Below, in pieces: positions 6,501 through 64,000 of a DNA stretch of 64,000 nucleotides. Both the position numbers and the translations under genes were made by a program. Source of the DNA: Tetrahymena thermophila SB210 (lineage: Eukaryota; Ciliophora; Oligohymenophorea; Hymenostomatida; Tetrahymenidae); contig NW_002476216.1 of assembly GCF_000189635.1 (NCBI RefSeq), forward strand, positions 124,001 through 188,000, written 5' to 3'. The stretch's first letter is position 1, and each line of letters starts with the position of its first letter. The notes below the pieces were generated by a model. That model did not search any database. It was not told the DNA's origin and saw nothing but the letters and a program-made list of their open reading frames with translations.

Positions 6501-8632
6501 ATGAAGAAGAAAAGCGATGAATTGAGTAATCAACAAGTAGTAGATTCTCACTTTAAAAAGATTACTGAACAATAAACAAGCGATTAAGTTTAATTTATAA
6601 AAAGCATTTCAGTCACTTCTTAGAAGAAAAAAATAGATCAAACTATCCCCAAAGTTAATCCTCCTTAAGAATACGCTACATTAACTCTGCCAGATGGAAA
6701 AACTGCAAAACTACCAATTCTCAAAGGCACACTTGGTTAATCTATGATAGACATTCGTAATCTAAATTAACAGACAGGGATGTTCACTTATGATCCTGGG
6801 TTTACAGCTACTGGAAGTTGCGCTTCAACAATAACTTATATTGATGGTGACAAAGGTTAACTACTCTATAGAGGATATAAAATCGAAGACTTAGCTGAGC
6901 ATTCTACATTTATCGAAGTTTGCTATTTAATGATTTATGGTGTTCTACCTTCAGCTAAAGAATTGAATGCATTTGAGGAATTGGTCGTCTCTGAAATGAT
7001 GGTCCACGAAAAAATTGTTGACTTCTACAAAGGTTTCTAATCTGATGCACATCCTATGGCTATTATGGTTGGTGTAATTGGTGCCTTATCTGCCTTTATG
7101 CATGAAGAATTTGATGTGAATGATCCTAGAGACAGAGAACATATCGCAATAAAGCTAGTTGCTAAGTTTCCTACCTTGGCAGCATTTGCTTTTAGAACTG
7201 CTTCTGGTCTTCCTCTTGTTAGACCTAAGAAGAAATATAACTATATTCAGAATTTCTTGTATATGATGCTTGCAAATCCAATGGATGACGATTTTGACAT
7301 TAATCCAGTCGTCGTTGAAGCAATAGATACGATTTTCTTACTTCATGCTGATCACGAGCAAAATGCCTCATCTTCTACAGTCAGAATTGCCGGTTCTTCT
7401 TTATGTAATCAAAATCATATATACTTACTTAACCATTTTTAAGAAATTTGCTATTTTCATCAAATATTTCTAAAGATAAGCTATTAATTTCATCTAAAAA
7501 ATACATGAAAATAAAATAATTTTAAAATTCTATGTCGTTTTGCAGGTATTTCTGTTCTTTTACAGACATATTTCTGTTATTTTACAAACAAATGATTGAT
7601 AGGAAAAAAAGAATAATAGTAAATAGAACAGCAGTTTGTTTTTAGGTTTTATTTAAAAAGTTACAAATAATATAAAAGAATTAAAAAATTTAGGAAAGAA
7701 ATTATCATAGTTATAAATTAGTTTTAGAATAGCACAAGAAATATTATCAAACAAAATAATAATAAAAAGATAGATAAGATTGTTTTCTTTCGAGAAGCTT
7801 AATAAAAATTTTAAATTTAAGCAATTAGGAATCATTAAATTATTAATTTAATAAAATATAAATAAATAAATAATTCTGCTTTGTAGAAATTTAATCTTTC
7901 TAAAGCTTTTAATAAAAATAAAATGAGAACAGAAATTTCACAATTACAAAATTATATATTAAAATATTTTTTTAAAAATATTTCCTTCATAATTTATTTT
8001 TTATTATTTTAGCTAATCCTTTTGCATGTGTTGCTGCTGGTATAGCTAGTTTGTGGGGACCTATGCATGGTGGAGCTAATGAGGCTGTCCTTTATATGTT
8101 AGAATAGATAGGATCTCCTGATAATATTGAAAAATGTATTAATATGGCTAAAGACAAAACATCAGGATTTAGATTAATGGGTTTCGGTCATAGAGTATAC
8201 AAAAATTTTGATCCTCGTTCAAGAGTAATGTAAAAAATGTGTTATAAAGTACTAGAAGTAACAGGAAAAGATACTATGCCTCTATTAGACATAGCTATAA
8301 AATTGGAGTAAAAGGCACTTTAAGATCCATATTTCATTGATAGAAAGCTCTATCCAAATGTTGATTTTTATACTGGTTTAGTGTATAAAGCTTTAGATAT
8401 TCCAGTTAATATGTTTACTGTAATGTTTGCAATAGCTCGTTCTATTGGATGGATTACTTAATGGTCAGAAATGATGGCAGAAGGTCTTAATAAAATTGGT
8501 CGTCCTAGATAATTGTATGTGGGTCCTCCTGTCAGAGAATTTGTTAAAATCGAAGATAGACAAGAAGAATGTTAATCAAATATCTTAGAAATACCAAAAC
8601 TTGCTAAAATATCAAATTTAATGAAGCTTTGA
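6501..8632 (+). CDS. Citrate synthase, bacterial GltA-like type
   Basis: Condenses acetyl-CoA and oxaloacetate to citrate. Two exons (6501-7404 and 8013-8632) give 507 aa; the 608-nt intron splits the conserved segment [17 protein letters not shown]. All three catalytic residues are present: His320 in MHGGANEA, His361 in GFGHRVYK and Asp418 in PNVDFYTG. Other signatures are [15 protein letters not shown] near the N-terminus and [17 protein letters not shown] before the splice site. The family type is that of bacterial, plant-peroxisomal and related enzymes rather than the classical animal mitochondrial one. About 60 residues precede the domain, Lys/Gln-rich, without a clear cleavable presequence. 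The C-terminus MKL is not a standard peroxisomal SKL signal, so the compartment is undecided. In-frame TAA/TAG as Gln are common. A 60-codon minus frame at 7653-7835 lies wholly in the intron and is spurious. Confidence 0.95.
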
Positions 8633-18100: not shown

Positions 18101-21100
18101 TTAAGTTGACTATGAGCAATTCATACAATTTTTTTACGTACAAGCAATACATTCATTTAGTGCTTCTGATTAATAAGTACCATTGAAACATTTTGAAAAA
18201 CATTTACTTTGGAATAAATAAAAATCTTTTTTGCATGAGGTACATGAAGTAGAGTTTTTTTCGCATTAATTACAGTTTTAATCGCATTGCTAACACGATC
18301 CTAAGTTAACATCAGGATAATAACCATCAGGGCATGGTTAAATAGAGCATTAATTTTACTGTCTTAAGTAAACTCCTTAAATGCATTTATTGCAATTTGT
18401 TGGGCTATCTGTGCAAGATTGACATAAGATATCACACTTTATGCATTCACCTTTTGCTATTTTTTTATTAAATTTACTTAGTTAATAAAGAAAAAATAAA
18501 ATAAATTTATTTACCTGGATTTAAACTATTTAGATAATAACCTACAGCACATTATGTACAATTATCACTCTATCTCTAACAGAAAAGACAAGAAGAGTCA
18601 CATTATTTGCATACATTTTTATCTATATAGTACCCTTCCTAACAAAAACTAACGCAATTTCCGTTGAAAACGTAAAGATTGTTGTCACATGCTGTACAAT
18701 TTTATGAAGTTACTGAGCATTGTTTACATATTGGAGAACATTATTAGCACCACATCAAGCGAGTATCTACGTAATATCCGATACCACAATCCTTAACACA
18801 TTATTAATTTCCTGATTAATCAGTAAATAACACAAAACCATCTTAACAAAGAGTACAAAATGGGATATTTTTACTAGTTTTTAAAAAACAATAAGAACAA
18901 TTTGCTATTTTACTTGAGCAATCTATGGGAGTAGGATCCAGATAAGAATAATTAAATTAAAGATTTGTTGATAGAGAATTAAAATATTTTTCGTCACATC
19001 CTCCATAACTTTACACAATACCAAAATAGCTTAAGAAAAATAAAATATTTGGATATTAATCACTTAAAGCAACTACACTAAACATTTTATCATTCAAACT
19101 AATTGATTAAGAAGTACTATCTATAGGTCCATATCGAGCTAATGATTAACTCTTAGAATTAAAGTAGTATATAAAATTAAGTTAATTATAAATATAACGT
19201 TTTTATTCAAGTAAGAATGAGGTGCTATCAATCAAGTTTATGGGATAGTATTAAATGTAAGTTGAACCAAAGTATAAATTTTTTAATGTAGTCTATTAAC
19301 TTATTTATGGGTTATTTGTTAATAATATCTAGTAAACCTATGCATCTAATTAAACTCTAATAAAACAAAAATATTTAAATATTAAATTAAATAAAATAAA
19401 TTTACTGAAACATAATTAATATGCAAGGAACAAAATTGCAAGTAGTAAGCTAGAACGATTTAAGAATGTAATTCTGCTATTTAAATTAAGCTAAACTATT
19501 TAATAGCTATTAAAGTGAAACATCATAAAACTGTAATAAAGTCTATCCTTTCATAGTTCCCAATATAAATACAATGTCAAAATTTGAAATATATTTAATG
19601 ACCGATATAGTATCAACGTTTAATTATGAGATAGACTAAATTGCAATTTATTTTCCTTTTTTAGATTTTATTAGTTAAAAGGTATAATAAAATAAATTAT
19701 TTTACCATTCTTAAGATTGCAGGTTATGTAATGACCTAATTAACTATATGAATAGATGGTTAACCTTTTAGTATCGACTTCTATTTAAATAATGGGTGAA
19801 GAATGAAATTTAACAGTTATTTAAGAACCCACATATCTTTAGTTTGTCCCATCTTTTAACAATAACTTAAATATAAATATACTCCCATCATAATTACCAG
19901 CTGCTAGAGTTTAGTTATCTATTTAAGTAGCATAAGTGATATTTAAAGAAGGAAACTAAAAGTAGTCTGTTAGTGATTTACTATCAGCATCAACTATAAA
20001 AATTTCAGTTGATGAATAAACTAATAATTTGTTAGAATTTGAGTAATTAATTGTAAGAGGATTTTACTGTGTAGACTTTAAATTTACAGGCTTGATCAAA
20101 CCAGAAAATTTAGGTTTATAATTGAAAAATCCATTAAATATAGTACGATCACTATAACCTAATTAAATATGTAATGAGTATTAAAAAATGATATTAAATA
20201 ATTTAATAGTTTGATTAAATTAAATATGTATTTCAACATTCATTCTTTGTTGATTTGTTGAAATCATTTTATTATTTAAACTAATTTTTTTATAATTTTT
20301 AAAAATAATTTTTTCTTTCTTTCTTTTAAGCAAATCTTTTGTTTAATAGAAATCAATTTCAAAAACTATTTTTATGAAATTTTAATTAAAGTAGATAATC
20401 AACAATTGAAATACAATCACGGATAATTTAAAAAGCATGAATGAAATTTAATAGGTAAAGTTAATTAATAATTTTACATTTTAAATAAAAAAGAGAAATC
20501 TCATTTATTGGTATTTCATCTTGAGTCTATAAAGCCATTTATAATTAAATTAGATTATTCTATTATAATGCACTAAAAGCATCTAAATTGGAAACTACTT
20601 ACCAGTTAGATTTATCGATTGTTATAATTGAAACTTTATAGATTGGTGGAGTTTTAGTTGCTTAATATTGATATTGCCAGAAGAACATAAATTAATCATT
20701 AGATAGGCAATAATAAGAAAAGTTTATCATTCTTAAAACTTGAAAAGTATTTAAATCTAAGAGGAGTGATTATTAATTTTATAAATCACTGATTAAAAGA
20801 ATATTTTCAATCTATAATGATTATATATAATTTGGATTTCTAAGAAGGCTTATTTATGATTTAATTTACTACTAATAACTATTATTGATTTATTTGAAAA
20901 CTATCAAAAAGCTCATAGAGCTATCATTAATCAGCGCATAAATAAAATTTTCATATTTAATGCAGTAACTAAAAGATCCAGTGTTCATTTCAAAATTTAG
21001 TAGGGGATTTTCTTGTTTAACATTAACACTATTATCCAATATTAACTGATTAAATATATACATATTATTTTATTTTTTTAAAATATAGACTACATCATTG

Positions 21101-47581: not shown

Positions 47582-48880
47582 TCAATTGATAAATTATTTT
47601 TCAACTTTTTAAACTATTCCTACAGCTGTAGTTTAATCAGAATCCTTTAATATGAATCTACCTAGAGGTGGATATTAGCTGTATTCTTCGATGCATAATG
47701 GTTGAAGAGGTTCAATTTCAGCTAATGCAGAACCTCCTTTTGAGACTGATATTGGGTTTTCTTCTAGAATAATGCCTGTTCTGTTATCAATTTTGTGTAT
47801 AATTCTTTTAATTCTACATTCTACTTATGTATAATGAATAAAAAGCTATGAAATTTAACCTACTTCTATCTATTTAGAGCTTTCGAGTAAAACTATTTAA
47901 GCTAAAAAAGATATTGCCTTCATCGCTGGATCTCTTTCAGCATCAGAAGCAACATTTCCTGTCTGAATCTCTGAAGTCTCAATTCCTTTAATGCTGAAAC
48001 CCATATTATCACCTGGAATAGCTTCTTCCATTGGATGATGCATCATCTCAAACTAAGAACATTCTGCTAATAAGCCACTTGGAGAAAATCTTATCATCAT
48101 TCCAGGCTTTAGAATACCTGTTTCAACCCTACCAACTGGAACTGTTCCTACTCCTCCAATCTTATAGATATCTTTAATTGGCATTCTCAAAGGTTTTTGT
48201 TTCAAATCATTAATATTATTCATAAAAAATAAAGCTTATAAAAGTGTTTATCCTTCATACCAAAGAATATTTTCTGATTTTTCTACTAAATTATCGCCTT
48301 TAACACCAGAAACTGGAATATAAAAAATACTTTCAGGATTAAATTTTATTTCATGCAAATAATTGTCAATTTAGTTTTTCATCAAAGTGAACTCATTTTC
48401 AGAAAAATTCACTATTTCTATTTTGTTAAGAGCCACTATAATCTACTTTACTCCAAGACTTTGTGCCAATATCAATTATTGCTTTATTTACTCAAATTGG
48501 AAATCATATTCATCTCTTTCTTGTTAAAGGGCTGCAACTATCAGCACTACATGAGCTTTAGATTAACCTGATATGATATTTTTAACAAAGTTTTTATGAC
48601 CAATAATATCAACTATTTCATAGTTATGGTTGTTCATTTCAAAGCATATATGTTTTTCTTCCTATTCACTGTTTCTCTCCAATTCAAATTGCAAATTTTT
48701 TAGTGGAATTGTAAAGTCTATATCCTTCTCTTCTGTAATCTAAGATGTAGTATTAAAATACTATAGCAATTGAGGACACTCTTTGCTTAACTTATAGAGA
48801 AAGTGACCAACTGTAGTTGATCTTCCTGAATTTGTGGATCCAAGAACAATTATATTGATTATTTCTTTTTTCTTAAACAT
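47582..48880 (-). CDS. Divergent eEF1A-like translation-factor paralogue with altered GTPase motifs
   Basis: Intronless, 432 aa, and aligns by eye along the whole length of eEF1A. Domain [21 protein letters not shown] stands where eEF1A has GHVDSGKST, so the P-loop lysine is arginine. The DxPGH box is DIIGH, and NKxD is NKIE. Domain II is well kept ([20 protein letters not shown]), as are [12 protein letters not shown] and domain III ending [20 protein letters not shown]. eEF1A brings aminoacyl-tRNA to the ribosome; this copy, with three changed nucleotide motifs, is probably not a normal elongation factor. It could bind nucleotide weakly or act structurally. No frameshift, and TGA is clean, so it is not a pseudogene. 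A plus-strand frame at 48353-48571 is antisense. Confidence 0.9.
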
Positions 48881-56248: not shown

Positions 56249-56328
56249 GATGAAGTGGCCGAGCGGTCTAAGGCGGTAGATTAAGGCTCTATTCCGAAAG
56301 GGCGCGAGTTCGAATCTCGCCTTCATCA
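56249..56328 (+). tRNA. tRNA-Leu (anticodon AAG)
   Basis: A full class II cloverleaf can be drawn: acceptor GATGAAG/CTTCATC, D arm GCC...GGC, anticodon stem GTAGA/TCTAT with loop TTAAGGC (anticodon AAG), a long variable arm typical of Leu, and T arm GCGAG-TTCGAAT-CTCGC, then discriminator A. No intron and no encoded CCA. It is strikingly G+C-rich against its surroundings. AAG becomes IAG after editing and reads CUU/CUC/CUA. Confidence 0.97.
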
Positions 56329-57647
56329 GATTTTTTTTATTTTTTAGGTAAGTTTTCAATATATAAACTGGACTATTTTCTTTTTATATTATAAATAAAC
56401 TAAATATATAAATTTACTTTTTAAACATTGAAAAATATTTATTAAATTTACACAATAATTTTATACCAATGCAACCTTAAATTAAATTTAATATCCTATT
56501 TCCTTCGTATCATAAGAAAATCAAACTCACTGCAAAAATAGATAGTTATTTAAAACAAAGTATATTTTTTATAAATTATAATAAAAGCAAAAAAATATCT
56601 TATATAAAAAATAATATAAATATTCGATACTATCTACTGATGTTTTATATTTTGCTAGTTAAGTTAAAAAATAAAATTTATATTAAAAATTAATCATTTC
56701 AGATTTAGTAGTGTTTAAGTATACGGTGTATTCTTATTAAATAATGAAATTTATATTAAGAAAACTTATAGAGAATTTTTAAGAATTATGTACACATTTT
56801 AAATAGAAATATTAAAATTGAATAATTAAATTTACATTAACTTTTTTGTGGTATATATACTAAAAACAAATTTATAAATTCAATTAATTTATTAATTATT
56901 TTTACCCACTTACAATCAATTGAATTTCCATTTTAACTATTCAGTATTTTTGAGGAAAAAAAATGATAAAACATATTAACTATTAGAACAAATTAGAAGA
57001 AGTAATTATTTATTTTTTTATAATTACACTTTAAATTTAATTTTAAATATAAAAAGTTTTTAACCTCTTCACACTAATCTCATTAGGCTGTCAGTATAGA
57101 TCTGAAGTATATTTAATTTATATTAATAATAATTATTACTATTATTATTAATTTTTTCTATATATTTAGTTTTTAAATTATTTATAATTTTATTTTTCTA
57201 AAAAAATGCTCACCTATTTTTATTCATTTTATATATAAAAATATTTTTTTAGTTATTTTAACTTGATTTTCAATTCCAATTTTTAAAATTGATAATGCAT
57301 TTTTTATTCTTTGATATTTTTATTCATTTTTTCCTTCTAGAACTTTTTCTTTATAAAACAGTTTATTTACTTTTAATTGTTTTATATTTAGTTATAAAAA
57401 TTAATTTAATATAATATATTGAAACTCTTTTGTTTATTTATTAGCTTTTTATTTGATTTATTTTTCTTTTTTACTCTACTTGTGTTTGTTTTTCTTTGTT
57501 TCTTTGTTAATTTAACTCATTTATTATTTTCTATTTTGAATTTTATGATTAATTCATTCATTATTATTATTTCATAATTTTTCTTCATTTTTTCCTTCTT
57601 TCTAATTAACATTTTTATTATATATTTTTTTTTCAATATTTATAAAG
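56329..57647. other. Spacer and possible 5' end of the LRR gene
   Basis: 1.3 kb with no domain-bearing frame. A short frame at 56963-57001 (MIKHINYQNKLEE, followed by a GTAATT donor) is the best candidate first exon of the LRR gene. Near 57060-57110 a degenerate segment resembles a repeat (CACTAATCTC, HTNLIRLS in one frame) after an AAAAAG acceptor-like end, but the phases do not close. The 5' structure is therefore unresolved. Confidence 0.35.
56331..56338 (+). terminator. RNA polymerase III terminator of tRNA-Leu
   Basis: A run of eight T starts two bases after the tRNA discriminator base, the expected position for a Pol III stop. Confidence 0.85.
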
Positions 57648-60600
57648 TGGAAGGAAAACTAGTGATAAAGATGTATCAGGCTTAGTTTCTGCTTTATAAT
57701 ATTGTACTAATCTCTCAAATTTGGCACTTAATTTTGGGTAAGAACAATTAATTTGTTTTTAATTGTGATATTTTTATTTATAAAAATGAATTTAAAAAAT
57801 ATTACTCTTTCAATAGGAGCAGTTTTGAATATACAATCACAATTATAAATAGATTTATGTCTTTTTTTTTTCAATAACAAAATATAAATTTTTTGGGGAA
57901 TTATATTCATATATTTAGAGTTATTGAACTTTAATAATCTCTATAAATAAAGTAAATTTAAATGAAAAATTACATTATTTCTCTTTAAATTATAATATGG
58001 TATAACACAAGCATTAATTTTATAATACTTACACCTAAAAGATTATTTTTTAATTATAGCTATTCTCAGAAAATTATTTCTAGAGTTAGAAATATAAACT
58101 TAGTAGAATAATAAACATTATTTAATATAATGTAAAAAAAATTAAAGTAAATAAAAAAAAGGTTTTGAAACAGGTTTGTTTCGAACCTGAAATAATTTAG
58201 ACTAAGAATATCCCTAAAGAGTTTGGTCCCCCAACCAAGGGGGTTAAAACATATAACTCTTTTAATTCATTTAGCTTTTTATTTGATTTCTTTTTCTATT
58301 TATTGTATTTGTGTTTTTTCTTCTTCTTCTTCTATTTTTCTTAATTTAACTTCTTTTTTATTTTCAACTTATGCTTTTATTATTATTAATTAACTCATTT
58401 CTTATTATTTCATATTTTTCCTTTAAATAACTAATAATTTTAATGTTTTTTATTAAATATTTAAAAAGTTACAATGAAATTGATGCAATTGGTCTATCAG
58501 GTTTAGGTTTTGCTTTAACAAAATGCACTAATCTCTCAAATTTGACAATCGGATTTGTGTAAAAACAGTTTATTTGATTTAGATTGCTATATTTTTTAAT
58601 ATAATAATGAATTTAAATCTATATAACTCTTTTAAATTTTTTGATAATTTTTGATTTGATTTATTTTTCTATTTATTTTTTTTTATACTTGTGTTTTTTT
58701 TCTACTATGCTTGTAAATTTAACTCATTTTTTTATTTTCAAATTTTGCTTTTATTATTATTAATTAACTAATTTCTTATTATTTAATATTTTTTCTTCAT
58801 TTTTCCTTCTAAATAACTAATTATTTTAATGTTTTTTATATAATATTTAAAAAGTTGCAATCAACTTTTTTGTGTAGAAGGTGCATCAGCCTTAGGTTCT
58901 GCTTTAGCAAATTGCACTAATCTCTCAAATTTGACACTTAACCTTTGGTAAAAAGACTTTATTTGTTTTTGATTGTGATACTTTTAATTATAAAAATGAA
59001 TTTATAAAAATATAACTCTTTTATTTTGTTTATTAACTTTTTATTTGGTTTATTTTTCTTTTTATATTTTATTGTTCTTGTGTTTTTTTTTCTTCTATCT
59101 TTCTCAATTTAGCTCATTTTTTATTTTAAAATTTTGCTTATATTAATTATTATTAAGTAATAATTCATATCTTATTATTTCATAATTTTTTCTTCATAGT
59201 TTCTTTCTAACTAACTAATTATTGATATATTTTTTCTTCAATATTTAAAAAGTAATAATTATATTGGTGATAAAAGTGCATCAGGCTTAGGTTATGGTTT
59301 AGCAAATTGCATTAATCTCTCAAATTTGACACTTTAACTTCAGTAAATAGTTTATTTGTTTTGGATTGTGGTATTTTTTAATATATTAATGAACTTGAGA
59401 CAATATAATTCTTTTAATTTGCTTTTTAGTTTTTAATTTGATTTGATTTATTTTTGTTTTTCTTTTTTATTGTATTTGTGTTTTATTTCTTTTATGTTTC
59501 TTAATTTAACTCATTTTTTATTTTTATCTTTTACTATTTTTAATTCACTCAATTCTTATTATTTCATATTTTTTCTTCATTTTTTCCTTCAAAGAAGCTA
59601 TTAGATTATATATTTTTTCTTCAATATTTCAAAAGGGATAATAAAATTCGTCAAGAAGGTGCATTAGCCTTAGGTTCTTGTTTAGCATATTGCACTAATC
59701 TCTCAAATTTGACAATTAATCTTAAGTAAAAAAGTTTTATTTGTTTTGAGTTGTCATATTTTTAGTTATAAAAAGGAATTTAAAACAATATAAAACTCTT
59801 TTAATTTGTTTATTAATTTTTTATTTGATTTATTTTTTATTGTAATCGTGTTTTTCTTTTTTTTTATCTTTCTTAATTACACTCATTTTTTATTTTCAAA
59901 TTTTATTTATTTTTCTTTATTTTTTATTTAATTAATTATTTATTTTTTCTTCAATATATAAAAAGTAACAATCAAATTGGTGATAAAGGTACATAAGGCT
60001 TAGTTTCTGGATTAAGAAATTGCACTAATCTCTCAAATTTAACACTTTATCTTAAGTAAAAAAGTTTATTTGACTTGGATTGTGATATTTTTTTGGATAA
60101 TAATTTTAAAACATGATTGTTAGATTTTGATTTGATTTATTTTTTTCTTTTTTATATACTTTTGTTTTTTTTGTTCTATCTTTCTTAATTTAAATCATTT
60201 TTATTTTCAAATTTTGTTTTATTATTATTAATTAAGTCATTTATTATTATTTCATATTTTTTCTTCATTTTTTTCTTCTAAATAGTAAATTAATTTTTAT
60301 TTTTTCTTTTTATTTAAAAGTGAAAATGAAATTAGGACATTTGGTCTATTAGGCTTAGAGTCTGGTTTAATAAATTGCACTAATCTCTCAAATTTGATAA
60401 TTAGTCTTAAGTAAAAACAGCTTATTTATTTTGGATTATGATATTTTTTAGTAAAAAAATTAATTTAAAATATTAAACTCTTTTAATTTATTTATCAACT
60501 TTTTATTTAATTCATTTTTTATGTTTTTTTATCTTTCTTAATTTAATTTATTTTTTAATTAATTCATTTCATATTATTTTGTATTTTTTTCTTTATTTTT

Positions 60601-63600
60601 TCCTTCTAAATAACTATTAATTATATATTTTTTTCAACAATAATTAAAAAGATATAATAAAATAAGTGAATAAAACCGATTAGACAATGGTTTTGCTTTA
60701 GCATATTGCACTAATCTCTCATATTTGACACTTGATTTTGAGTAAAAATAGTTCATTTGTTTTTGATTGTGATATTTTTAATTATAAAAATGAATTTAAA
60801 ATAAAAAAACTCTTTAGTTCGTTTATTAACTTTTTATTTGATGTATTGTTATTGTACTTATGTTTTTTTTATCTTTCTTAATTTAGCTTATTTACTTTTA
60901 TAAACTATGTATTTTCTTTTATTATTAATTTATTCATTTCTTATTATTTCATATTATTTCATCATTTTTTCCTTTTTACTAACTCATTGACTTTCTATAT
61001 TTTTTTTAATATTAAAAAGCGAAAACGAAATTAATGCAATATCTGCATCTAACTTAGGCTCTGCTTTAGCAAAATGCACTAATCTCTCAAATTTGACACT
61101 TAATCTTCGGTAAAAATAGTTTATTTGTTTGTTTTGCAAAATGATATTTATTAGTATTTTAGTGAATTTAAAAAAATAAAACCTTTAATTTGTTTATTAG
61201 CTTTTTTTTTAATTTATTTTTTTTTATTGTGCTATTTATTGTTTTTCTAATCTTTATTAATTTAACTCATTAATTTTTTAATTAATTAATTTCTTATTAT
61301 TTCATATTTTTTTTCCTTCGAAATAACGATTAATTTTATATTTTTCGAAAATATTTAAAAAGTGGCAATTCTTTAACTGAAGAAGGTTCACCAGGCTTAG
61401 TTTCTGCTTTAGCAAATTGCACTAATCTCTCAAATTTGACACTTTATCTTGGGTAAAAGCAGCTTAATTGTTTTGGATTGTGATATTTTTTTGTTATAAA
61501 ATGAATTAAAAAAATATAGATAGCTCTTTTAATTTATTTATTTATTAATTTTTATTTGAATTATTTTTCTTTTTTATTTTACTTTTATTTTTTTTTATCT
61601 TTCTTAATTTAAAACATTTTAATATTTTCAAAATTTGCTTTTATTATTAACTTATTCATTTCTTATTATTTCATTTTTTCTTTATTTTTTCCATCTAAAT
61701 AATTAATTATTTATTTTTCTTCAATATTTAAAAAGTTGCACTTCAGTTCGTGAAGGTGCATCAGACTTAGGTTCTGCTTTAGCAAATTGCAAGAATCTTA
61801 CAAATCTGAATCTTAATCTTTAGTAAAAGAAGTTTATTTATTTTAGATTATGATATTTTTTTGTATAAAAACAAATTTAAAACAAAAAAACTCTTTTAAT
61901 TTTTCTATTAACTATTTATTCGATTTATTTATTTATTTATTTTATTTTACTTATGTTTTTTTATCTTTCTTAATTTAACTCTTTTTATATTTTAGAATTT
62001 TGCTTTGATTATTAATTTATTTTTTTCATATTATTTTATATTTTTTTCATCATTCTTTCTTCTAATTAAATTTTTAACAATTAACTTATTCATAATATTT
62101 AAAAAGTCACAATTTTATTGTTGCAAAAGGTGCATCAGACCTAGGTTCTGCTTTAGTAAATTGCACTAATCTCTAAAATTTGACACTTAATCTTAGGTAA
62201 AAAAGTTTATTTGTTGTTTATTAGCTTTTGATATGATTTTTTTTTCTTCCTTTTTTTATTTTAATTGAGTTTTTCTTCTATGCTTCTTAATTTAATTCAT
62301 TTTTTATTTTCAAATTTTGTTTTTATAAATATCATTTGTTATTATTTCATATTTTTTCTTCATTTACCTTCTAAATAACTAATTAATTTCTATCTTTTCT
62401 TCAATATTTATAAAGCTAAAATTAAATTGATGCAATTGGTGCATCCAGATTAGGTTTTGCTTTAAAAAATTGCACTAATCTCTCAAATTTGACTCTTGAT
62501 CTTGGGTAAAAGCAGTTTATTTACTTATTTTGGATTGTGATATTTATTTGATTTATTTTTTTTTTTCTTATTTATTTTACTTGTGTTTTTTTTTCATCTA
62601 TGTTTCTGATTTACCTCATTTTTTTATATTATTTTGCTTTTATTATCATTAATTAATTAATTTCTTACTATTTTATATTTTTTATTCGATTTTCAACCTA
62701 ACTAACTAACTAACTAAGTAAGTAAGTAATTAATAATGTTAAATATTTTATCTTGAATATTTTAAAAAGATGCAATTCAATTGGTGAATATGGTGCATCA
62801 AGTTTAAGTTCTGGTTTAGGAATGAACACAAATCTCTCTAATTTGACACTAAATATTGCGTATATAGAGTTTATTTGTTTTGGACTATGATATTTTTAAT
62901 TATAAAAATGAATTTAAAATGATTTTACTCTTTTAATTTGTTTGTTTTTTTGTTAGCTTTTTATTTGATTTATTTTTCTTTTTCTTTTTTTATATTTGTT
63001 TATTTTGTTTCCCTTCTATCTTTCTTAATTTAACTCCTTTTTTTATTTTCAATTTTCCTTTAAATTTATTGCCTAATTAATTCTTATTATTTCATATTTT
63101 TTCATTCTAAGTATTAAATTAATAATATATTTTTCCTTCAATATTTAAAAAGTTGCTGTGAAATTGGTACAAATGGTGTATTCAGATTAGGTTCTGGTTT
63201 AGCAAATTGCACCAATCTCTCAAATTTGACACTTAAACTTATGTAAAAACAGTTTATATGATTTGAAGCAATATTACTCTTTTAATTTGTTAAAAAGCCT
63301 TTTATATGATTCCTTTTTCCTTTTTTACTGTATTTGTGTGTGTGCTTTTATTTAATATTTCATAATTTAATTCATTTTATTATTTTTTAATTTTGCATTT
63401 TTTATTTATTTTTATTTTGTATTTTTTTATTCATTTTTTCCTTCTAACTAACCAAAAAATTAATTTTCTATTTTTTCTTAATATTTAAAAAGTGGAAATT
63501 AAATTGATGGATAAGGTGCATCAGGCTTATGTTCTGCTTTAGCATAATGCACTAATCTCTCAGATTTGTCACTTGATTTTGGGTAAAAAGAGTTTATTTG

Positions 63601-64000
63601 ATTTGGATTGTGTTATTTTAATTATAAAAAGGAATTTAAAACAATAAAACAAACCTTTTTAATTTGTTAATTAGGTTTTATTTGATTTATTTTTCTTTTT
63701 CTTTTTTATTGTACTATTTTTATTTTCATATATTTTTCTTTGTAAATTTAACTCATTTTTATATTTTCTAATTTTGATTTATTGTTAATTAATTCATTTC
63801 TTATTATTTTGTATTCTTTCTTCTTTTTTTCCTACTAACTAACTAACATATTAATTAATTATATTTTTTTTCTTCAATATTTAAAAAGTAACAATTAAAT
63901 TCATGAATAAGGTGCATTAGGTATAGGTCTTGCTTTAGCATAATACACTAATCTCTAAAATTTGACACTTAATCTTGGGTATGAACAGTTTATTTGGTTT
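57648..64000 (+). CDS. Leucine-rich-repeat protein, one LRR per exon (17 exons seen; continues right)
   Basis: Ribonuclease-inhibitor-type LRR protein. Consensus repeat: NNQIGDKGASGLGSALANC then TNLSNLTLNL, 30 residues. Exons: 57648-57737, 58469-58558, 58855-58947, 59253-59342, 59636-59725, 59966-60055, 60321-60410, 60652-60741, 61020-61109, 61363-61452, 61736-61822, 62107-62196, 62416-62505, 62770-62859, 63153-63242, 63493-63582 and 63889-63978. Fifteen are 90 nt, one 93, one 87. Each begins after an A-rich AAG acceptor, ends before GTAAAA, GTAAGA or a similar donor, and splits a codon in phase 2, so all joins keep frame. Introns are 219-306 nt except the first (731 nt). The CTNLSNLTL block is nearly invariant, while the IGDEG block varies most. 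No kinase or other domain is in view. Start and end are missing. RI-type LRRs are protein-binding scaffolds. Confidence 0.88.
57648..64000 (+). repeat. Tandem array of ~310-390 bp exon-plus-intron units
   Basis: The unit is a 90-nt LRR exon plus a T-rich intron. Introns also resemble each other: after the donor a segment like GTTTATTTG-TTTGGATTGTGATATTTTT, then T/C-rich tracts and a final TTCTTCAATATTTAAAAAG. Exon and intron were therefore duplicated together. Sixteen full exon-to-exon intervals are in the window, ranging from 309 bp to 821 bp; the largest one holds an extra structured insert at about 58153-58262. Confidence 0.9.
58153..58262 (-). ncRNA. Possible small structured RNA (cloverleaf-like) in the first visible LRR intron
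   Basis: A G+C-bearing island in T-rich intron. Stems: GTTTTGA 58162-58168 with TTAAAAC 58244-58250; CAGGTT 58171-58176 with AACCTG 58184-58189; CCCCC 58228-58232 with GGGGG 58239-58243; a weaker TTTAG/CTAAA near 58196-58217. Read on the minus strand it carries GGTTCGAAAC, like a Pol III B box, and ends in eight T (58160-58153), like a Pol III stop. It does not make a normal tRNA: T-loop length and spacing are wrong. It could be a tRNA-derived element, a small Pol III RNA or chance. Confidence 0.35.

Follow-up and report, generated by a model that had tools for sequence, protein, structure and literature searches.

A stretch of 64,000 nt was analysed (the window, C284:124001-188000; positions below count from its first nucleotide), and its last part holds a leucine-rich-repeat (LRR) gene in which every repeat unit is an exon of its own. 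Very likely this is an apparently intact gene of Tetrahymena thermophila belonging to group III, the youngest group of 90-bp-exon LRR genes, whose exon-intron units would have been multiplied and scrambled by recombination among loci. The design of the array is real and striking. Between 57648 and 63978 of the plus strand lie 17 LRR repeat exons, of which 15 are 90 nt long, exon 3 is 93 nt and exon 11 is 87 nt, and all 17 lengths are divisible by three. With the unit beyond the end of the window, the whole array comprises 18 repeat exons, 16 of them exactly 90 nt. Splice sites were sought at the expected places flanking each repeat exon, and AG before and GT after were found for every one of the 17 exons in the window. 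All 18 are bordered by phase-2 introns on both sides, the first base of each exon being the third of a codon and its final two being the first two of the next. The frame of the gene is open only when TAA and TAG are read as glutamine (NCBI table 6, the ciliate code). In this frame TGA occurs in none of the 18 repeat exons, compared with 13 and 15 of them at the other two offsets; shuffling of the exons (300 trials, dinucleotide-preserving where successful and otherwise mononucleotide) left on average 10.4, and at most 17, of the 18 without an in-frame TGA.

A preliminary description of the same DNA had proposed 17 in-phase single-LRR exons of 30 residues each, flanked by phase-2 introns and open to gain or loss without damage to the frame. 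The 17 exons and their symmetric phase were confirmed, and the expected tolerance follows from single-LRR exons with phase 2 on both sides and lengths that are multiples of three. The array is one unit longer than had been described, two 5' exons in the window had been overlooked, and a terminal exon lies beyond it.

The 5' exons were recognised by aligning the 5' flank with those of 14 sister arrays (15 rows including its own). Exon A has a length of 39 nt in every one of the 15 rows, and 13 of them have ATG at its start. The intron that follows it measures 54-58 nt in all rows, with GT at its start in 14 and AG at its end in 15, and exon B is 50 nt long in 13 rows, 53 nt in one and 56 nt in one, ending in phase 2 in every row. 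These rows represent 14 of 18 other flanks. Left out were L039, with a flank that starts too late, and three loci with no listed match to the flank of the present gene (L057, L063 and L076); L062, being the same locus, was not counted. Two sister arrays, L017 and L023, carry ACG and AGG where the start codon is otherwise conserved; they may use a start at another place or be pseudogenes.

At the 3' end, a final intron of 100 nt separates repeat exon 18 from the terminal exon, which was aligned with 18 of 19 sister loci (L043-L061; L057 left out). The block KCLKSKRLV, allowing for one changed residue, is present in 17 of the 19 aligned rows, that is, in the array's own row and in 16 of the 18 sisters. 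TGA follows the block within the cut stretch in 16 of these 17 rows. In L051 and L053 the block was not seen, probably because the 330-nt stretch had been cut too short. The 5' and terminal exons common to sister genes rule out a lone array without gene ends. The predicted gene thus has 21 exons (the 39-nt and 50-nt 5' exons, 18 single-LRR exons and one terminal exon), and its spliced model runs through 601 codons without a stop, with ATG, splice sites, phase and terminal TGA all intact; the gene is apparently intact.

The 601-residue model gives weak matches in the PDB to LRR proteins of the RanGAP and DRC5 types (8 chains, E values of 1e-10 to 8e-4), and the alignments display a strand-turn motif of the LxLxxNxIG kind. 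The predicted protein shares this motif and a repeat of about 30 residues with ribonuclease-inhibitor/RanGAP LRR proteins (PDB 1yrg and 1k5d) and with DRC5/TCTE1 (PDB 8j07 and 9fqr); the sequence match to the RanGAP and DRC5 proteins is weak.

Genes of this kind were described from ten Tetrahymena species by Xiong et al. (2019, PLoS Biol, PMC6564038; statements on this paper refer to the portions of it drawn on here). Group III, with 934 genes in T. thermophila, consists of tandem arrays of at least three exactly 90-bp exons, and the present array has 16. Over 98% of the introns preceding exactly 90-bp exons are reported to be in phase 2, as are the introns on both sides of all 18 repeat exons and the end of exon B in all 15 rows. 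Leucine codons are published at exon nucleotides 36, 48, 66, 75, 81 and 87, and those of the family exons sampled here centre on the same positions. Introns 2-17 have a mean length of 270.5 nt (range 219-306), close to the peak at about 257 bp published for group III (about 56 bp in group II); the exceptions are intron 1, which is 731 nt long and carries an insertion, and the 100-nt last intron. The published family resides in the Tetrahymena macronuclear genome, and the frames here require TAA and TAG as glutamine. A telomerase stretch encoded in the genome agrees at 132 of 134 residues with PDB chain 6d6v_A, the telomerase of T. thermophila, both mismatches being at its edge, which points to T. 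thermophila or a very close relative. As in that family, whole units resemble one another at the nucleotide level and exons are scrambled between genes. In the searched genome (101 Mb in 445 contigs), the core motif has 3,053 matches at up to 3 mismatches and its reversed control none. Published members are further marked by masking with one of eight consensus repeats (CRS1-8) and by an association with the REP retrotransposon in the germline genome. Apart from one 87-nt exon, one 93-nt exon and the repeat inserted in intron 1, the locus is of the same kind, an ordinary member of a family of many hundreds of genes described in 2019, very probably from the same species.

Origin of the exon-intron units

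The preliminary description had also stated that the introns share sequence. This was borne out: introns 2-17 have a mean pairwise identity of 0.77, against 0.51 after shuffling, and the corresponding values for the exons are 0.73 and 0.38. Both parts being more alike than their shuffled controls, exon and intron must have been duplicated together.

In order to place the units among their relatives, an exon profile was run on the extended window and on sampled loci, giving 328 matches of at least 30 bits. After 13 matches in L042, L062, L066 and L068 had been left out (L042 and L062 are the same locus), 315 were used. They came from 54 sources: 30 core-motif loci, 19 terminal-exon loci, 4 intron-repeat loci and the extended window. 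Removal of 16 matches that were cut off, 2 lacking AG or GT and 34 duplicate hits of places already counted left 263 distinct family exons, of which 256 are exactly 90 nt long, the 16 of the present array included. The sample is biased toward the core motif that was used for fetching.

Whole exon-intron units are repeated, and this would fit recent and continuing local tandem amplification of one unit, in which neighbours are expected to be closest, as the preliminary description had suggested checking. The present array shows no such pattern. An adjacent unit is the closest partner for 2 of 18 exons, which is no excess over chance (permutation mean 2.0), and for 3 of 16 introns, counted without permutation. 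Mean identity between neighbours is not raised (permutation p of 0.13 for exons and 0.76 for introns), and identity between units stays flat from lag 1 to lag 9. Over all arrays, 61 of the 256 exons have their nearest relative in their own array, where shuffling predicts 5.6, which speaks for local amplification. Tandem duplication leaving nearest neighbours most alike is nonetheless absent from this array, and we regard it as a highly improbable account of the locus. For 15 of its 16 exactly-90-nt exons the nearest relative among the 256 sampled exons of 50 arrays lies in another array, and since this sample is small beside the 3,053 core matches, nearer relatives may exist. The predominance of nearest relatives elsewhere leads us to read the array as a mosaic, exchanged with, or assembled from, other loci.

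We suggest that ectopic recombination between exon-intron units, unequal or conversion-like and acting in the germline nucleus, grew and scrambled the gene; ectopic recombination that scrambles exons among genes is also what Xiong et al. report. An in-register exchange would be safe for the frame because the units share phase 2 and lengths divisible by three. Unequal exchange could thus add, drop or swap units without frame damage, and might generate a recognition family of varied length and surface. The copy-number change envisaged in the preliminary description agrees, over evolutionary time, with the mosaic relations found here, and is supported because the published genes of T. thermophila range from 1 to 51 exons (PMC6564038). 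Constitutive removal of the introns would then yield a solenoid of 18 LRRs.

Constraint on the repeat exons and the question of decay

Among the 256 family exons, leucine occupies codons 12, 16, 22, 25, 27 and 29 in 228 to 249 cases, and the Leu/Ile positions are nearly fixed. The positions that vary most include codons 1, 6, 7 and 28 as well as the residue split across the junction. Recent divergence was examined in 21 reciprocal nearest pairs, in which 8 changes fell on 7 hydrophobic codons and 46 on 4 exposed codons, which makes change about tenfold rarer at a hydrophobic codon than at an exposed one. Codons 26, 28, 1 and 3 were picked as the exposed class after the variable columns had been seen and with the general LRR strand pattern in mind. 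We read this as a fixed hydrophobic framework beneath an exposed strand surface that would be free to change.

Ratios against an intron-based neutral spectrum, from 21 independent pairs, were 1.49 (1.06-2.38) for all codons and 1.19 (0.74-2.57) for codons outside the two classes. Taking all within-array pairs, the values were 1.49 for all, 1.75 for exposed and 1.44 for other codons, and the ratio from a raw count in 82 nearest-neighbour pairs, which overlap, was 1.28. The contrast between classes in total change is clear and the absolute ratios are unclear, because hydrophobic codons have few synonymous changes as well. Diversifying selection on the exposed residues is possible, not proven. 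At the level of genes, purifying selection has been reported for the family (PMC6564038). The main text of that paper does not contain the words positive selection, hypervariable, concave or diversifying, so the contrast between framework and exposed residues does not appear there under any of these terms.

Several observations weigh against an intact gene under constraint. With composition allowed for by the shuffles, the exons are about as divergent as the introns, which, judged from this array alone, would be compatible with relaxed constraint or recent decay. The ratio for hydrophobic codons does not fall below 1 in the independent pairs (1.22, 0.27-3.65) and is 0.94 within the array, and the exposed-codon ratio of 1.90 has a wide range (1.02-5.31), resting on the 21 independent pairs. 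A length other than 90 nt is found in two of the 18 repeat exons. Only 13 of 19 rows have the acceptor AG of the terminal exon at the boundary given by the alignment, and the best Pfam match of the model, LRR_5, stays below its cut-off (20.1 bits against 27.7). A decaying or dead array that still resembles a gene because it is young would account for the similar divergence of exons and introns and for the repeat inserted in intron 1. It would also fit the absence of ATG from 2 of the 15 aligned 5' ends, both in sister genes, and the report that most species-specific genes are weakly expressed in axenic culture (PMC6564038). Such decay is hard to reconcile with a start codon, 18 repeat exons, splice sites, phase and TGA all preserved over 601 codons. 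It also conflicts with the tenfold scarcity of changes at hydrophobic codons and with the complete lack of in-frame TGA in the 256 exactly-90-nt family exons, where the other offsets contain it in 189 and 208. We therefore consider a pseudogene very unlikely, and prefer an apparently intact gene in which selection would preserve the hydrophobic framework and the open frame and let the exposed residues of the strand vary, as in a diversified recognition surface. Xiong et al. proposed bacterial recognition as the function, and a role in sensing bacteria taken as food, or the products of such bacteria, would be plausible here.

The locus and its neighbourhood

The coordinates of the gene are collected in Table 1.

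Table 1. Exons, introns and inserted repeat of the LRR gene (window positions, except where C284 and L009 positions are given)
Feature	Position	Strand	Remarks
5' exon A	56963-57001	+	39 nt; ATG start; 13 codons (code 6); from sister 5'-end alignment
Intron after exon A	57002-57056	+	55 nt; GTAATT...AAAAAG
5' exon B	57057-57106	+	50 nt; ends in phase 2
Intron, exon B to repeat exon 1	57107-57647	+	Resembles 5' introns of other arrays
LRR repeat exon 1	57648-57737	+	90 nt
Intron 1	57738-58468	+	731 nt; about 302 nt without insertion
Intron-1 insertion	57815-58243	+	About 430 nt; between imperfect direct repeats
Dispersed-repeat part of insertion	58042-58198	+	At least 48 matches including own site
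LRR repeat exon 2	58469-58558	+	90 nt
LRR repeat exon 3	58855-58947	+	93 nt
LRR repeat exon 4	59253-59342	+	90 nt
LRR repeat exon 5	59636-59725	+	90 nt
LRR repeat exon 6	59966-60055	+	90 nt
LRR repeat exon 7	60321-60410	+	90 nt
LRR repeat exon 8	60652-60741	+	90 nt
LRR repeat exon 9	61020-61109	+	90 nt
LRR repeat exon 10	61363-61452	+	90 nt
LRR repeat exon 11	61736-61822	+	87 nt
LRR repeat exon 12	62107-62196	+	90 nt
LRR repeat exon 13	62416-62505	+	90 nt
LRR repeat exon 14	62770-62859	+	90 nt
LRR repeat exon 15	63153-63242	+	90 nt
LRR repeat exon 16	63493-63582	+	90 nt
LRR repeat exon 17	63889-63978	+	90 nt
LRR repeat exon 18	C284:188237-188326 (L009:1237-1326)	+	Beyond window end
Terminal exon	C284:188427-188523 (L009:1427-1523)	+	97 nt; ends in TGA; beyond window

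The insertion in intron 1 is flanked by a 23-nt direct repeat (57792-57814 and 58244-58266, 20 of 23 positions identical). The matches to its dispersed part were counted after scoring 40 of the 132 first-look candidates. Of 19 other loci of the repeat, 7 (L064, L068, L072, L075, L077, L078 and L081) have inverted pairs that span 407-518 bp, and the ends of their arms resemble TATAGCTATT; the insertion in intron 1 carries one arm. On account of these inverted pairs with shared arm ends, the dispersed repeat looks like a short inverted-repeat element, in this case one kept in the somatic genome. LRR exons of the same family lie within about 1.5 kb in 6 of the 19 repeat loci (L063, L066, L068, L071, L072 and L076), a count without a background rate; in L068 they score weakly (18-34 bits), and a lone 14-bit match in L080 was not counted.

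On either side of the LRR gene stand identical copies of a tRNA-Leu(AAG) gene, four in all: one upstream (56249-56328) and three downstream (L009:2322-2401, 2499-2578 and 2760-2839), as if the LRR gene sat inside a tRNA cluster. No general link between tRNA genes and such arrays was seen: only L024 among 49 loci from the LRR searches (L012-L041 and L043-L061) has a tRNA call, in what is a weak test with loci of about 3 kb, mostly inside arrays and some overlapping. A diverged gene of the EF-1-alpha type, with PDB matches to EF-1-alpha but no near-identical chain, occupies 47582-48880 on the minus strand, and about 18 kb from it, beyond the window, an open reading frame (ORF) of 435 aa (L009:3829-5136, minus strand) reads as canonical EF-1-alpha. 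A citrate synthase gene extends over 6501-8632 of the plus strand; its part at 6501-7388 matches citrate synthases in the PDB, none of them near-identical, and the ORF at 7403-8632 reads as a further part. On the minus strand, 50390-51004 matches PF18171 (SLOG in TRPM, prokaryote) above the Pfam cut-off and is perhaps an exon of a TRPM-like protein. A cysteine-rich piece at 18447-19526, also on the minus strand, gives Pfam matches to VSP and Furin-like_2 below their cut-offs. Cysteine-rich VSP/Furin-like proteins form a large family in ciliates.

Exon skipping and the meaning of the array design

Single LRR exons might be skipped in some transcripts, in which case one gene would give solenoids that differ in binding face and in the number of repeats. 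In favour of this, all repeat exons have lengths divisible by three and lie between phase-2 introns, and at 90 nt they are shorter than the introns (mean 270 nt), the opposite of the general Tetrahymena length pattern, which has been tied to intron definition in the part of PMC3274533 consulted. In addition, T. thermophila is reported as the sole non-animal species of a survey with an animal-like bias toward frame-preserving skipped exons (p = 2.18e-5, PMC6142364). Against skipping, the splice sites across the gene look uniform, with no sign of weak exons, and cassette events account for only 139 of 1,474 alternative-splicing events in T. thermophila RNA-seq (PMC3274533). Near-identical units would moreover invite mis-mapped reads that mimic skips. 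The 279-bp mean intron length given for cassette exons in the same paper was not used, as it averages three introns including the long skipped one. On balance we think skipping unlikely at this gene, and constitutive inclusion of all 18 repeats remains the preferred reading; RNA-Seq backs other arrays of the family (S8 Fig legend of PMC6564038). A literature search joining Tetrahymena, exon skipping and leucine-rich repeat surfaced a single paper, on Paramecium, most subscription journals being outside its coverage.

Like Dscam-type arrays, the gene has numerous exons that share a phase and are close in length, and each of them codes for a single structural unit. Dscam exons are mutually exclusive and accompanied by selector and docking sequences, unlike the present LRR gene, for which inclusion of all units is the default expectation. 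The roughly 72,000 exactly 90-nt exons counted over the species studied (PMC6564038) could create the skipping bias, truly or through mis-mapping of near-identical units. It seems doubtful that the 90-bp LRR arrays are the main source of the animal-like frame-preserving skipping of T. thermophila, with varied solenoids in each cell. Combinatorial splicing is nevertheless worth testing because of the skipping bias (PMC6142364) and the cassette events (PMC3274533), as far as the portions used of these two papers report them.

With units that can all be exchanged for one another, the family is a clean natural case of exon shuffling. The locus contributes a gene model complete at both ends, together with a contrast between framework and exposed residues at the level of single sites that would fit a recognition surface. 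Whether frame-neutral units cause the frame-preserving skipping of Tetrahymena can be tested with existing RNA data.

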